A DNA stretch of 58,334 bases, taken from NCBI RefSeq assembly GCF_000376785.1, contig NZ_AQXX01000103.1, positions 1 to 58,334 of the forward strand, in the 5' to 3' direction. Below are positions 27,244 through 43,228 of this stretch, piece after piece. Positions within the stretch are counted from its first letter, which is position 1, and every line of letters begins with the position of its first letter. Made by a program: the position numbers and the translations under genes. The notes below the pieces were generated by a model, which was not told the origin of the DNA, ran no database searches, and saw only the letters and a list, made by a program, of their open reading frames with translations. Source of the stretch: Hahella ganghwensis DSM 17046. Lineage in GTDB: Bacteria; Pseudomonadota; Gammaproteobacteria; Pseudomonadales; Oleiphilaceae.

Positions 27244-28512
27244 CTAGAACAATCCGGCCGCCCAATTTTTACGCTCGCTACTTTCCTGTTCCAGTAATTT
27301 CAGCGCCCGTTGTGAATACTCAGAACTGGTTTTTCTGATCTCTGCCACCTTGGTAAGTAACGACTGGGAAAGGGCATCACGGCGCTGGAGAAAAGATTCC
27401 AGTAGAGTACTGATATCGTTGGCAGAACTTTCCAGCCCCAGCATGCACTCCGGATGTTCAATCCGTGAAAAGAAGCCACGGGTTTTATCCATAAAGGTCA
27501 ACATCACCGGCGGCGTGCCTTGTTTGCAGGAAAATACAGAACCATGCAATCTGGTGCTCAGCGTGACATCACACTGGCCATAAATGGCTTCTATGGCTGC
27601 CGCCTCATGCTTACCCTGCACCCTGTACACACGAGACTTCAGAGATTCCGGCAATAATGCGCAGGTCAGTTCCGCTTCCAGCCGGTCATCATCCCGCCGT
27701 CCGTCAACGTCATATACATTCTGGGGAATCATCACGACGTCCCGATCTTCCTGAGCCAGCCAGTCCGCCAACACCTCGGCAACCTTTTGCCGGTGTGCAT
27801 CCTGATCAATTCCCAGCCAATAGATATTTCTTAGTGCGACCGCCAGACGCGGCCCTTTTCTTTCGGGAATCCTCTCTTCTGAAAATAATGCCAGGGCCTT
27901 GTCAGCATCAGCGGGCTGCCCGGCCAGAGCCAGATCTCCCAGCACCGCATGCTCAGGAATCGCGATACCAGCATCATTCAGGTTCTTGGGTGACTTAGGG
28001 TCCCTGAATGTCAGACTGGACAATGCCGGAAGCAGACGCTGAACAACCAGTTTGGCCCAGGGAGACTTCAGGTCTTCACAGGCCAGCGCCAAACCATAGA
28101 CCGGGGTATGGGTCAACAGACAGGCAGATACAACCGCCAAAGCCTGACCCAAAGCGCCTTTTAACATCCCGGCCGTTCCTGTTTCCACCAAAAACTGCCC
28201 AGGCCCAAGGACAACCAGATCCGATGAAGCCACTTCTTTCACAAACGCCAGATACTCCCCAGAATCGTCCGGATTAAGGCTCCGCAGCCAGCGACCGGCC
28301 GCCAACTCCCGGTTGGAGTGCTCGAAATTGGGAATGGTTCGAACCCCGTAAGTCTTGTCATAGTTGGCATTGGGGTGCCTGGAAGCCACCACAAACTCCA
28401 CTTGATCATTCCCCAAAGCGGTGCGTATAGGCTCGCAAAATGCTTTCAGCATGGCCTCATTACCGGCGTTTTCAATGCCGAAGAATCCATAAATCAAAAT
28501 CTTTTTCATCAT
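27244..28512 (-). CDS. Polysaccharide pyruvyltransferase-family protein
   Basis: A 422-residue protein from ATG 28512; a GTG at 28527 overlapping the previous stop (GTGA) is an alternative start. The beginning (MKKILIYGFFGIENAGNEAML) is the typical N-terminus of this family. The C-terminal part has STRLHGSVFSCKQGTPPVML, the conserved RLH and P blocks. Family members add ketal pyruvate from PEP to sugars, and some relatives are glycosyltransferases. It is the last gene of the leftward glycan run and may add a pyruvyl group or act late in assembly. Confidence 0.85.
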   Translation of the reverse strand: MMKKILIYGFFGIENAGNEAMLKAFCEPIRTALGNDQVEFVVASRHPNANYDKTYGVRTIPNFEHSNRELAAGRWLRSLNPDDSGEYLAFVKEVASSDLVVLGPGQFLVETGTAGMLKGALGQALAVVSACLLTHTPVYGLALACEDLKSPWAKLVVQRLLPALSSLTFRDPKSPKNLNDAGIAIPEHAVLGDLALAGQPADADKALALFSEERIPERKGPRLAVALRNIYWLGIDQDAHRQKVAEVLADWLAQEDRDVVMIPQNVYDVDGRRDDDRLEAELTCALLPESLKSRVYRVQGKHEAAAIEAIYGQCDVTLSTRLHGSVFSCKQGTPPVMLTFMDKTRGFFSRIEHPECMLGLESSANDISTLLESFLQRRDALSQSLLTKVAEIRKTSSEYSQRALKLLEQESSERKNWAAGLF

Positions 28513-28523
28513 ACGGGTCTCTA

Positions 28524-29453
28524 TCACGCCTGTTCTGCATGGGATTTTCTGGTGTATACAATCGCCTGGCGCCCCACACCTGTTGCCGCCAGAGCTTGAT
28601 ACATACTGGCAAGAATCACGGCCTGTCCGGAATCGACCAGGGATTTTTCAAATCGCATGCGTTTCTTGTGAACCTGTCTGCCCAGAGCATCGTCACCGAC
28701 ATAGTTGTCTCCGAACAGCAGAAAGCTTTCCAGAGGAAACTGAGTGGAACGCTGTACCGGTTCGCAGCCTTCGGCACGGCAAAGATTTTCCAGAGATTCA
28801 AAATCAAAGTAGTTTATGTGCAGCCGGTTGATCCACCACATTTGCAGTTTATTACTCTGGACTGCCGCCATCTGCATGGGATTAAAATCATTGGGGCATT
28901 CCACCGAGAGAATTCCACCGGGTTTAAGCGCTCTCACCACCTGATGAACAACCGCCTGCGGATCCAGTACATGTTCCAGAAACATCGACATGTTGATAAC
29001 ATCAAACTCGCCGATACGACGCCACTCATCTTCAGTGATATCCTCAATCATCGATGGGATGATACTAATCTGCCTTTGCCGCAGATCCTCATGAAATGCA
29101 CGACTGGGCTCCACCCCCCAGGCGTCCCATCCGCGTTCCCTGAAATAAGCAGGAAAATCACCGACACCACTGCCCACATCAAGAATACGGGGGTTTTCCA
29201 GTCCTGGTAACAGGTCTGCATAATCCGCTTCGCGACGGGCAAATACGCGCTGCCAGTGTTCTACATCCTCAGCTTTTCGCTGACGAAAATAGGACCTGAC
29301 CTCACCGCCGAATTTTTTTTCGTAGGTTTCCTTGATTTCCGCTTCTGTGGGTAAAGGCCAAAGATGCTTAAAGGCACAGTCTCTGCAGTCAATGACCTTC
29401 AGATCACCGTGCTGAAAACTTTCACTGAATGTATGCTGCATGCTCTCTGCCAA
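28524..29453 (-). CDS. Class I SAM methyltransferase (glycan cluster)
   Basis: A 309-residue frame starting at TTG 29453, where AAGGGG is spaced 6 nt before it; ATG 29441 is the alternative. It contains ILDVGSGVGDFPAYFRERGW (motif I), VEPSRAF, FDVINMSMFLEHVLDP and a C-terminal alpha/beta extension. An isolated CRDC pair near the N-terminus resembles half of the zinc knuckle found in the other methyltransferase of this locus. It sits between the enolase-superfamily gene and the pyruvyltransferase gene. It probably O- or N-methylates the glycan or its substituent. Confidence 0.85.
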   Translation of the reverse strand: MAESMQHTFSESFQHGDLKVIDCRDCAFKHLWPLPTEAEIKETYEKKFGGEVRSYFRQRKAEDVEHWQRVFARREADYADLLPGLENPRILDVGSGVGDFPAYFRERGWDAWGVEPSRAFHEDLRQRQISIIPSMIEDITEDEWRRIGEFDVINMSMFLEHVLDPQAVVHQVVRALKPGGILSVECPNDFNPMQMAAVQSNKLQMWWINRLHINYFDFESLENLCRAEGCEPVQRSTQFPLESFLLFGDNYVGDDALGRQVHKKRMRFEKSLVDSGQAVILASMYQALAATGVGRQAIVYTRKSHAEQA

Positions 29454-29471
29454 TCCTGTCCCCTTACACGG

Positions 29472-41030: not shown

Positions 41031-41057
41031 TCAACTTGCCTGTTATGCATTCTAATT

Positions 41058-42230
41058 TCAGGCACTGTTTATTGAGGATGAAGTTGTCTCCAGAGCCTGG
41101 ATAACACTATCTGCAACCTGCTGAAGTTCCCCCTCTGATAAACTGGTATACAAAGGAATCGTGAGTGCCTGCTGATAAAAAAGTTCTGCTTGCGGACAAT
41201 AACCAGACCTGAACCCTAATTGCTGGTAAAAGGGTTGAAGATAAATTGGAATATAATGAACATTCACCCCAATTCCGGATTCTCTTAGCAGATCAAACAT
41301 GGCACGCCGACAATCCTCGGGTACCTGAATGACAAAAATATGCCAGCTACTGGAGCGCTCCGCTTTCTGAGTCAGCACCTGAACGTCCGAATCAGTAAAG
41401 GCCTTCTGGTATGCTGCCGCCAGAACTTGCCGCCGGGATACAAATCCCGGCAGACTCGCAGACTGAGATCGGCCCAGTGCCGCCTGCAGATCCGTCATAC
41501 GATAATTAAAACCAAGCGACTGCTGCTCATACACCCAGGGATCATTTTTCAGAGCCTTGAACTGTGAATCATCCCGGGTAATGCCATGGCTGCGTAACTG
41601 CGACAGTTTTTCCGCCAGCGCAGGCTGATTGGTCGAGACAGCGCCCCCCTCACCGGTCGTTATCATTTTGACCGGATGAAAACTGAACACGGTCATGTCA
41701 CTCCACCGACAACTTCCCACAGGCTCATCAAAATAGCGGGCTCCCAGCCCATGGGAGGCATCTTCAATCACGCGAAAACCATAGCGGGAGGCCAGCTCAG
41801 AGATTTCTTTCATATCGCAGGGCTGCCCTGCGAAATGGACAGGAATCACCACCTTCGGCAGTTTTCCTGAGACCTCAGCATCCTCCAGCCTGGCCTTCAG
41901 CGCCGCAACAGACATGTTGCCGGTATCGGGCTCCACATCAACAAAGTCCACAGATGCTCCACAATACAGAGCACAGTTGGAAGAAGCGACAAAGGAGATG
42001 GGGCTGGTCCAGACATAGTCACCAGGCCCTACATCCAGTGCCAGACAGGCAATATGCAAGGCTGAAGTACCGCTGTTCACCGCCACGACATGGCGCGCCT
42101 TGACCAGATTTCCCAAGACTTGTTCAAACAGGGGGACTTCCGGTCCCTGGGTCAGATAGTCAGACTTGAGGACCCGGCAGACTGCCTCAATATCCTGCTC
42201 AGACAGGTCCTGTCGACCATAAGGAATCAT
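41058..42230 (-). CDS. pseC: UDP-4-amino-4,6-dideoxy-N-acetyl-beta-L-altrosamine transaminase PseC
   Basis: A 390-residue PLP-dependent aminotransferase of the DegT/DnrJ/EryC1 family. The PLP lysine is K188 in [29 protein letters not shown] binds the cofactor phosphate, and [13 protein letters not shown] holds the ring-stacking region. The start ([14 protein letters not shown]) is typical of PseC. It transaminates the 4-keto product of PseB using glutamate. It overlaps pseB by 4 bp (ATGA), the usual pairing. Confidence 0.94.
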
Positions 42231-43228
42231 AAACCAGCCTCAAGATGTAACTTTCGAATTTCCTCTACAGTAAGAAAGTGCGGATTTCTTCCCGAGTTAT
42301 AGGCAAACCCCTGCTCTACTGATTGACCTTTTTCTCCCAAAGGGTTCTTGGCGTAATCCACTTTCACCCCAAAAAATTTAATCGTGGGTTTGATAACAAA
42401 ATGGTCATCAAATTCAACGGTAATATGGCTGTCATCCCGAGGACACATGGTCTCGTGCATTTTCTCCCCAGGGCGAATACCAACCACTTTATGGGGCAAT
42501 TCCGGCGCCATGGCCGCGGCCACATCGACAATTCGCACACTGGGAATTTTGGGTACGAAAATCTCACCGCCTCGCATCCGGGAAAAATTCTTCAGTACAA
42601 AATCCACGCCCTGCTGAAGCGTTATCCAAAACCGGGTCATTTCCTCATGCGTAATAGGCAAATGGTCAGAGCCTTCATCAATCAGCTTTCTGAATAAGGG
42701 CACGACAGACCCGCGCGACCCTACCACATTGCCATAGCGGACCACAGAAAACCGGGTGTTCTTGGTCCCCGCCATGTTATTACCAGCCACAAACAGCTTA
42801 TCTGAGGCCAGCTTGGTGGCGCCATACAAGTTGACCGGATTCGCCGCTTTATCAGTAGACAACGCGATGACTTTGGAAACTTCGTTGGCCAGGCAGGCAT
42901 GCACCACGTTCTCCGCACCATGGATATTGGTCTTGATACATTCCATCGGGTTATATTCAGCCGCCGGCACCTGTTTCAGAGCAGCAGCGTGAATCACAAA
43001 ATCCACATCCCGCATGGCAAAGGTCAGCCGGTCACGATCCCGAACATCGCCAATAAAATACCGCATACAGCCGAATCCGAATTTCTGCTGCATTTCGTAT
43101 TGTTTAAGCTCATCCCGGGAATAAATAATCAGACGCTTGGGCTTATATCGCTGGAGCAACGTCTGGGTGTATAAATGGCCGAAGGACCCCGTACCGCCGG
43201 TAATTAAAATCGATTTGCCATCAAACAT
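42227..43228 (-). CDS. pseB: UDP-GlcNAc 4,6-dehydratase (5-inverting) PseB
   Basis: A 333-residue SDR that opens with [17 protein letters not shown] and [17 protein letters not shown], almost a PseB consensus. Catalytic D126/K127 (LSTDKA) and Y135-x3-K139 (YGATK) are present. It converts UDP-GlcNAc to UDP-2-acetamido-2,6-dideoxy-beta-L-arabino-hexos-4-ulose, the first committed step to pseudaminic acid. It is the first gene of the leftward run. GGGGGAG precedes ATG, and a sigma-54 promoter lies 70 bp upstream. Confidence 0.96.

Follow-up and report, generated by a model that had tools for sequence, protein, structure and literature searches.

A flagellin nonulosonate operon of Hahella ganghwensis and its probable amide-forming ATP-grasp ligase

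Described systems and the Hahella operon

Synthesis of the nonulosonate Pse5Ac7Ac in Campylobacter jejuni and Helicobacter pylori runs through the PseB and PseC steps, a NeuB-family condensation and activation with CMP, all of which have counterparts in the operon described here. This operon occupies 27244–43228 on the minus strand of a 58,334-nt stretch of Hahella ganghwensis DSM 17046 (contig NZ_AQXX01000103.1, positions 1 to 58,334; the whole stretch is called the window below) and comprises thirteen open reading frames (ORFs) of 190–615 amino acids (aa). It differs from the Pse5Ac7Ac pathway in that PseH is missing, PseI and PseG score below their equivalog cut-offs, and an ATP-grasp ligase and other genes are added.

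Among the matches listed in literature searches for enolase, TPP (thiamine pyrophosphate) or ATP-grasp enzymes together with nonulosonates, only one report, on the sfm genes of Shewanella oneidensis (PMC3765264), joins an ATP-grasp protein to a nonulosonate. In the extract of that report, SfmA is a NeuB protein and sfmBCDE encode, respectively, an ilvB-like TPP protein, a 3-oxoacyl-ACP-reductase-type protein, a 395-aa methyltransferase and an ATP-grasp protein. Loss of sfmA–D leaves flagellin at approximately its unmodified size and abolishes motility on plates, while loss of sfmE gives a flagellin shift that is pronounced, although slightly smaller than in the sfmA–D mutants; the flagellin carries a nonulosonate, likely with a single N-acetyl group, and in addition a C9H16O7 unit that contains no nitrogen and has zero to two extra CH2 (extract of PMC3765264). 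The likeness to the window extends to a NeuB-type synthase, an ATP-grasp protein, a 395-aa S-adenosylmethionine (SAM) methyltransferase, genomic PseB and PseC homologs, the lack of a clear PseH, flagellin as the target and an upstream Maf gene, as far as the extract goes. At the same time, the sfm genes include the ilvB-like TPP enzyme and a short-chain dehydrogenase/reductase (SDR) of the 3-oxoacyl-ACP-reductase type, neither of which is present in the window, whereas only the window has the Gfo/Idh, M20, enolase and epimerase-type SDR genes and the PseG-PIG-L and cytidylyltransferase-PseG fusions. SfmE is likened here to the window ligase by gene content, not by sequence.

Two further flagellin glycans bear a more distant resemblance. 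In Clostridioides difficile type B flagellin, the ATP-grasp gene CDR20291_0245 is required for the peptidylamido part of the glycan, a parallel to the amide step proposed here for Hahella; the glycan is built on other sugars, which the extract of the report does not describe as nonulosonate (PMC5207246; likened by description). Leg5GluNMe7Ac of Clostridium botulinum is a flagellin nonulosonate carrying an amino acid, of the legionaminic type, and is likened by its glycan only (extract of PMC13317340). A literature search for mandelate racemase together with nonulosonates gave no link, and further searches listed no direct precedent.

We read the Hahella operon as one for a CMP-nonulosonate whose synthesis starts like that of pseudaminic acid and then diverges, with an amide formed by the ligase, an acid supplied by the interleaved genes and loading onto flagellin by a Maf protein. 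The probability we give to this reading as a whole is about 0.48, slightly under even odds. PseB and PseC, whose family membership is clear, would make a UDP-4-amino sugar; the ATP-grasp ligase would join a carboxylic acid to an amino group of that sugar, most likely the one at position 4, which is the target of acetylation by PseH, the stage of this step being the least sure. Judging by their families, a PseG domain would then remove UDP, the NeuB-type enzyme would condense the sugar with phosphoenolpyruvate, the cytidylyltransferase would make the CMP sugar, and the Maf protein encoded nearby would place it on the neighbouring flagellins. To judge by operon position, the products of the interleaved Gfo/Idh, M20, mandelate-racemase-type enolase, SDR, GNAT and methyltransferase genes may make or trim the acid, which would most likely be a hydroxy or amino acid derived from a sugar. 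Related loci pair a ligase of this kind with other genes, either an acetolactate-synthase-like or transketolase-like TPP enzyme and a short-chain reductase, or a class III aminotransferase and IolB.

The thirteen ORFs meet at twelve junctions, four of which are overlaps of 4 bases (pseB/pseC, M20/Gfo, SDR/enolase and methyltransferase/pyruvyltransferase-like) and eight are gaps of 3–67 bases, in agreement with the thirteen-gene leftward operon with ATGA overlaps described by the first-pass annotation of this DNA. Pfam and NCBIfam searches likewise return the families that it had named, although its list lacked the fused PseG architecture, the non-PseH score of the GNAT, and the Maf and flagellin neighbours. 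Its interpretation is supported in part. Its proposal that the operon loads a new acyl or aminoacyl group, here beside flagellin genes, very likely holds in view of the ligase tree, the fold, the absent PseH and the shared neighbourhoods; the share it gave to the M20, Gfo/Idh and enolase genes is suggested by their position in the operon. Overall, we describe the locus as a flagellin nonulosonate operon and a variant of the known pathway: the acyl group is probably attached by an amide ligase, which perhaps acts where PseH otherwise would.

The ligase and the place of PseH

The first two enzymes of the pathway exceed their NCBIfam equivalog cut-offs: PseB, the inverting UDP-GlcNAc 4,6-dehydratase (42227–43228), scores 555.5 bits with TIGR03589 (cut-off 407.75), and PseC, the UDP-4-amino-4,6-dideoxy-AltNAc transaminase (41058–42230), scores 524 bits with TIGR03588 (cut-off 423.5). 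The PseI/NeuB-type synthase with its SAF domain (34020–35099; PF03102, 263.5 bits) is the sole NeuB-family match in the 6.56 Mb genome and misses the cut-offs for both PseI (TIGR03586, 308 against 340.25) and NnaB (TIGR03569, 298.3 against 399.65). Both PseG domains are fused to other domains and clear in Pfam, and both fall short of the TIGR03590 cut-off of 153.55. One of them (106.2 bits) spans residues ~23–294 of a 600-aa protein that continues with a PIG-L domain (37953–39755), and the other (108.5 bits) follows the CMP-nonulosonate cytidylyltransferase domain (CTP_transf_3) of a 615-aa protein (31572–33419), for which PF02348 is clear (87.7 bits) and the family matches listed include no PseF model. 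The label pseudaminic-type given earlier is established for the first two steps only.

Directly after pseC comes the gene for the ATP-grasp carboxylate-amine ligase with an LAL_C2 domain, the proposed amide former (39768–41030). Its predicted structure (pLDDT, predicted local distance difference test, 93.4) has an L-amino acid ligase as its best solved structural match, and both the fold and the C-terminal domain are those of the L-amino-acid ligase (LAL) family. A match at 1e-40 was present in 7 of 368 other genomes of the class, with relatives of the window's cytidylyltransferase-PseG or synthase at six of these seven loci. An eight-row alignment was used to scan 84,980 species genomes; of 591 stretches, at least 552 were confirmed, and the best 80 were kept (the 80 loci below). 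The nearest relatives among these best 80 come from the methanogen Methanocalculus taiwanensis (66% identity), a Verrucomicrobiia metagenome-assembled genome (MAG; 64%) and an Actinobacteria MAG (44%). Nonulosonate genes were detected with profiles made here in 29 of the 80 loci, several of which are short, and NeuB in 20.

The clade of the ligase is associated with nonulosonate loci. Of the 88 rows in our tree, 36 were labelled nonulosonate-linked; the window ligase sits in a set of five rows, all linked (support 100/99), nested within a set of 38 rows, 31 of them linked (99/97); five linked rows fall outside this larger set. The linkage label changes 12 times on the tree, compared with a mean of 28.1 after shuffling, and none of 500 shuffles was as low. 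The sfm-like loci L045–L048 share the ligase clade with the window, and the common gene set of the clade's loci is the content of Shewanella sfmBCDE. From its sequence relationships and modelled fold, the ligase probably amidates the sugar, and it perhaps does so in place of PseH.

A whole-genome scan with the PseH model TIGR03585 at E 0.1 gave six weak matches, none above the cut-off and none in the operon; at this permissive threshold all 14 control genomes also give matches. The GNAT acyltransferase of the operon (33444–34016; PF00583, 61.7 bits) is absent from these six and, since it is not among the TIGR03585 matches even at E 0.1, is not PseH by the family test. We then compared two groups of genomes. 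Thirteen of the 35 other linked loci were followed into their genomes (completeness known for two), and a PseH match at 1e-8 was seen in one of the 13 (39.9 bits, on another contig) and above the cut-off in none. Seven comparison genomes with PIG-L-bearing pse loci gave a PseH match in five, inside the pse locus in three, where the PseH-like GNATs score 80–154 bits, and above the cut-off in one. The pattern fits a replacement of PseH by the ligase, without proving it.

These counts also bear on the alternative that the product is ordinary di-N-acetyl pseudaminic acid, the operon GNAT being a divergent PseH and the extra genes decorating hydroxyls or acting elsewhere. In its favour, the gene order places the GNAT between synthase and cytidylyltransferase, GNATs are quick to diverge, PseB and PseC are of the usual kind, and two of the seven comparison genomes likewise have no PseH-family match. 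Yet the GNAT stays outside the genome's PseH-family matches, while the three in-locus GNATs of the comparison genomes reach the scores given above, and the ligase with its tie to nonulosonate loci would be left unexplained. We regard this alternative as distinctly improbable.

Fused domains and exchangeable partner genes

The PIG-L domain fused to PseG (residues ~371–592) passes its family profile (PF02585, 84.1 bits against 28.2). It carries the motif HPGDE, as does the PIG-L domain of its 46% identical fused counterpart in the Verrucomicrobiia MAG, compared with HxDDE in 13 aligned stand-alone relatives (13 of 16). The Asp of HPDDE is the catalytic base in characterised PIG-L members such as MshB, and in the window and the MAG it is replaced by Gly. 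The domain named earlier is PIG-L by family and, because the expected catalytic-base Asp is absent, is not to be counted as an ordinary deacetylase, a role we considered and found weakened by HPGDE; going by the sequence, the fused version has probably shifted away from plain deacetylation. PIG-L relatives were found in 16 other genomes among 398 of the phylum (1e-15; a 17th match covers the PseG part).

The fused counterpart belongs to a cluster in MAG JAJVHY010000013 (L051/L137) in which eight of the thirteen operon genes have relatives at 41–64% identity. PseB, PseC, PseG-PIG-L with HPGDE, PseI, GNAT (41% identical), cytidylyltransferase-PseG (51% identical in both L051 and the Methanocalculus locus L052), SDR (57%) and ATP-grasp are held in common with the window, whereas the stretches read contain no M20, Gfo/Idh or enolase relative; HAD, nucleotidyltransferase and further genes take their place. 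Those stretches also gave no flagellin match.

The fusion raises the alternative that an N-acetyl sugar is made first, that PIG-L removes one acetyl group after PseG takes off UDP, and that the ATP-grasp ligase amidates the freed amine. Besides the fusion itself, 7 of the 15 loci fetched have a stand-alone PIG-L relative next to pseB, pseC and a NeuB gene, the three PIG-L loci looked at have formyltransferases, and four loci with ATP-grasp and TPP genes carry PIG-L as well. The Shewanella sugar is likely mono-N-acetyl and the ligase mutant still builds filaments, which fits a late step (extract of PMC3765264). Against this stand the Gly in place of the expected catalytic Asp in both the window protein and its single fused relative, and the absence of PseH, which would leave a free amine already present after PseC. 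We think this order of events unlikely.

We counted the partner genes of the ligase within 6 kb on the same strand at the 35 other loci of the 36-row fork that holds the window. A TPP enzyme (acetolactate-synthase-like or transketolase-like) was present in 26, a classical short-chain reductase in 26 and both in 24, and none of the 52 non-clade loci carries either. Dropping the three query loci as well as L112, which duplicates L044 (one contig) and is counted among the 35, gives 22, 22 and 20 of 31, respectively, all 52 non-clade loci being kept. Two of the TPP enzymes (L045 and L047) score 496 and 479 bits with the acetolactate synthase model, below its cut-off of 538. Four loci (L063, L064, L065 and L090) combine a TPP enzyme, a reductase, ATP-grasp and a PIG-L relative; in L063 and L065 the motif reads HPDDE. 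The same set, already annotated, lies on the Solidesulfovibrio carbinolicus plasmid pDCAR1 (L147 526–13335, from another collection), where neuB, pseF, fabG, a split transketolase, two methyltransferases, ATP-grasp, pseB and pseC occur together; no N-acetyltransferase is among its 17 listed features, in a gene table that may be incomplete.

Closer to the window the partners change. Within its subclade, L052, L053 and L056 carry class III aminotransferase and IolB relatives after the ligase (with IolB on the opposite strand in L056) and L051 has neither; single aminotransferase or IolB relatives occur outside the subclade too (L083, L057). The window ligase is instead accompanied by four other genes: the Gfo/Idh/MocA oxidoreductase (35124–36200; PF01408, 92.7 bits), the 562-aa M20-family amidohydrolase (36197–37885; PF01546, 66.7 bits), the enolase-superfamily (MR_MLE) enzyme of mandelate-racemase type (29472–30557; PF13378, 183.5 bits) and the extended SDR of the NDP-sugar epimerase type (30554–31510; PF01370, 94.6 bits). 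None of the thirteen operon proteins belongs to a TPP-enzyme family, and the only SDR-type protein besides PseB is the epimerase-type one. Relatives of the SAM methyltransferase (28524–29453; PF13489, 84 bits) occur in 23 of the 80 loci and those of the polysaccharide pyruvyltransferase-like protein (PS_pyruv_trans; 27244–28527; PF04230, 60.8 bits) in two, the L053 copy (34%) adjoining a methyltransferase.

The first-pass annotation had suggested asking whether the extra genes travel with nonulosonate genes elsewhere, and the answer is mixed. The ATP-grasp, PseG-PIG-L, cytidylyltransferase-PseG, GNAT, SDR, methyltransferase and pyruvyltransferase-like genes do have relatives in other nonulosonate loci, those of PseG-PIG-L, GNAT and SDR in one of the 80 only, but M20, Gfo/Idh and enolase-type genes have none in the 80 ligase loci at the thresholds used. 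Counting strong matches only, the enolase-type gene (1e-50) and Gfo/Idh (1e-40) were each found in one of 249 phylum genomes, the window's own. The M20 gene matched one of 293 order genomes (1e-20) and one of 398 phylum genomes (1e-18), again its own; two weak partial matches were seen in the Verrucomicrobiia genome, and plasmids gave partial matches, none of 35 records covering 80% of the query and coverage reaching at most 41% among the matches listed. M20 was rejected as a search handle for related operons, its only match at these thresholds being in its own genome, and a single-sequence model of its structure was dropped (pLDDT 35.1). The M20 protein has M20-type motifs at residues 123, 145, 184, 364 and 515. 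Alignment of the enolase-type protein with the solved entries 3ozm, 3h12 and 4ggb shows KTK, D, E, E and D/H at the positions of the KxK, the three metal ligands and the Asp/His pair of the mandelate-racemase type. Many enzymes of this type act on sugar acids, and a sugar-derived acid is our best guess.

Several observations weigh against our reading of the operon. The Shewanella sfmE mutant retains filaments, swims and spreads less (extract of PMC3765264); if SfmE falls in this clade, it is unlikely to play an obligatory PseH role at an early step there, and the stronger phenotypes of the TPP, reductase and methyltransferase mutants misfit genes that merely feed a ligase. The Shewanella evidence points both ways, in that the partly modified flagellin of the sfmE mutant would fit a ligase that adds a second unit to a still-transferable nonulosonate. 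It is operon position that assigns the M20, Gfo/Idh and enolase genes their role, the fork behind the TPP count has a support of 96/64, and no known partner set lies near the ligase of the Verrucomicrobiia relative. For PseH, two of the seven comparison genomes have no match and two more have it outside the locus, completeness is given for only two of the 13 ligase genomes, and the operon GNAT could be a very divergent PseH.

The milder sfmE phenotype makes the ligase less likely to stand in for PseH and makes another alternative more likely, in which the extra genes build a unit on the nonulosonate that is complete before transfer to flagellin, and the ligase makes a smaller, dispensable addition. 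The epimerase-type SDR, the pyruvyltransferase-like protein and the methyltransferases suit glycan building, and on gels the Shewanella TPP, reductase and methyltransferase mutants show loss of the entire modification, a greater effect than in the ligase mutant (extract of PMC3765264). As we read the published formula, C9H16O7 could be the acyl portion of a methylated polyhydroxy acid or, just as well, an O-methyl octose. On the other hand, none of the thirteen operon proteins matches a glycosyltransferase family, the glycosyltransferase family 2 (GT2) gene at 44210–45022 is of the arsenosugar type, and the window has no TPP and reductase genes of the sfm kind; we consider this alternative rather unlikely.

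Across loci, the ligase appears to be the constant part and its partner genes the exchangeable part, and this wider pattern of one ligase clade with exchangeable partners is a more interesting result than the operon itself. Tentatively, this ATP-grasp branch, found in many phyla and an archaeon, may replace PseH and attach custom acids through an amide, with acid-making partners swapped as cassettes (TPP enzyme and reductase; aminotransferase and IolB; here Gfo/Idh, M20 and enolase-type), and PseG-PIG-L with its lost Asp may have a new activity; as a whole this is possible rather than probable. If true, the N-acyl group of bacterial sialic-acid-like sugars would be open to many acids, flagellin masses that are still unsolved, the S. 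oneidensis addition among them, would be partly explained and predictable from neighbouring genes, and genomes with pseB and pseC that lack PseH should hold this ligase or another acylating enzyme.

ATP-grasp genes were also seen in other settings. The Methanocalculus taiwanensis locus (L052 7487–11251) has pseB, pseC, NeuB and cytidylyltransferase-PseG relatives with three ATP-grasp genes in tandem, which suggests a longer acyl or peptide-like chain. In a Streptomyces globosus plasmid cluster with capreomycidine synthase (L146 4277–8233), PIG-L adjoins ATP-grasp, a possible parallel of amino-sugar amidation. Plasmid surface-polysaccharide loci of Enterococcus hirae and Parabacteroides distasonis have related ATP-grasp genes near DegT aminotransferases.

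The flagellin island and its surroundings

The surroundings of the operon are a flagellin glycosylation island. A flagellin, the probable acceptor, is encoded at 19912–22017 on the plus strand (best NCBIfam match the flagellin model NF009448, 415.6 bits, cut-off 531), and a second one at 15013–17079 on the minus strand (PF00669, 154.6 bits; PF00700, 84.5 bits). Between them, on the minus strand at 17333–19465, lies the probable loader, a Maf-type flagellin nonulosonate transferase with Maf_flag10_N (PF20157, 113.4 bits) and MptE-like (PF01973, 120.1 bits) domains whose gene adjoins flagellin, as is characteristic of Maf flagellin glycosyltransferases. FlaG and FliD are also present around the operon.

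Convergent with the operon, at 26026–27213 on the plus strand, is the gene for a 395-aa C-methyltransferase-type SAM enzyme (PF13489, PF08484), a possible partner, with relatives in L044–L048 and L051. It ends a plus-strand run from flagellin to the operon (22093–27213) that also includes a TPR protein weakly matching a methyltransferase, a weak 2-oxoglutarate-Fe(II) oxygenase match and an aldo-keto reductase, and that may belong to the same glycan as the operon. On the other side, at 43508–45848, an arsenosugar-type cluster adjoins the operon, with a DUF2064 protein, a TIGR04283 arsenosugar-type glycosyltransferase (267.7 bits, cut-off 182) and a DUF3641 radical SAM protein.

Scans for sigma-70 promoters and for terminators yielded no more matches than shuffled sequences did. 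For sigma-28, the pattern with up to three mismatches gave 41 matches in the window, compared with 19.9 expected; a sigma-28 promoter for the operon was rejected, none of the 41 lying within 300 bases upstream of pseB. One sigma-28-like site with no mismatch is at 3507–3533 on the plus strand, and the sites at 14390–14416 and 17180–17206 include one with a single mismatch upstream of the flagellin at 15013–17079 and one with two mismatches upstream of FliD.

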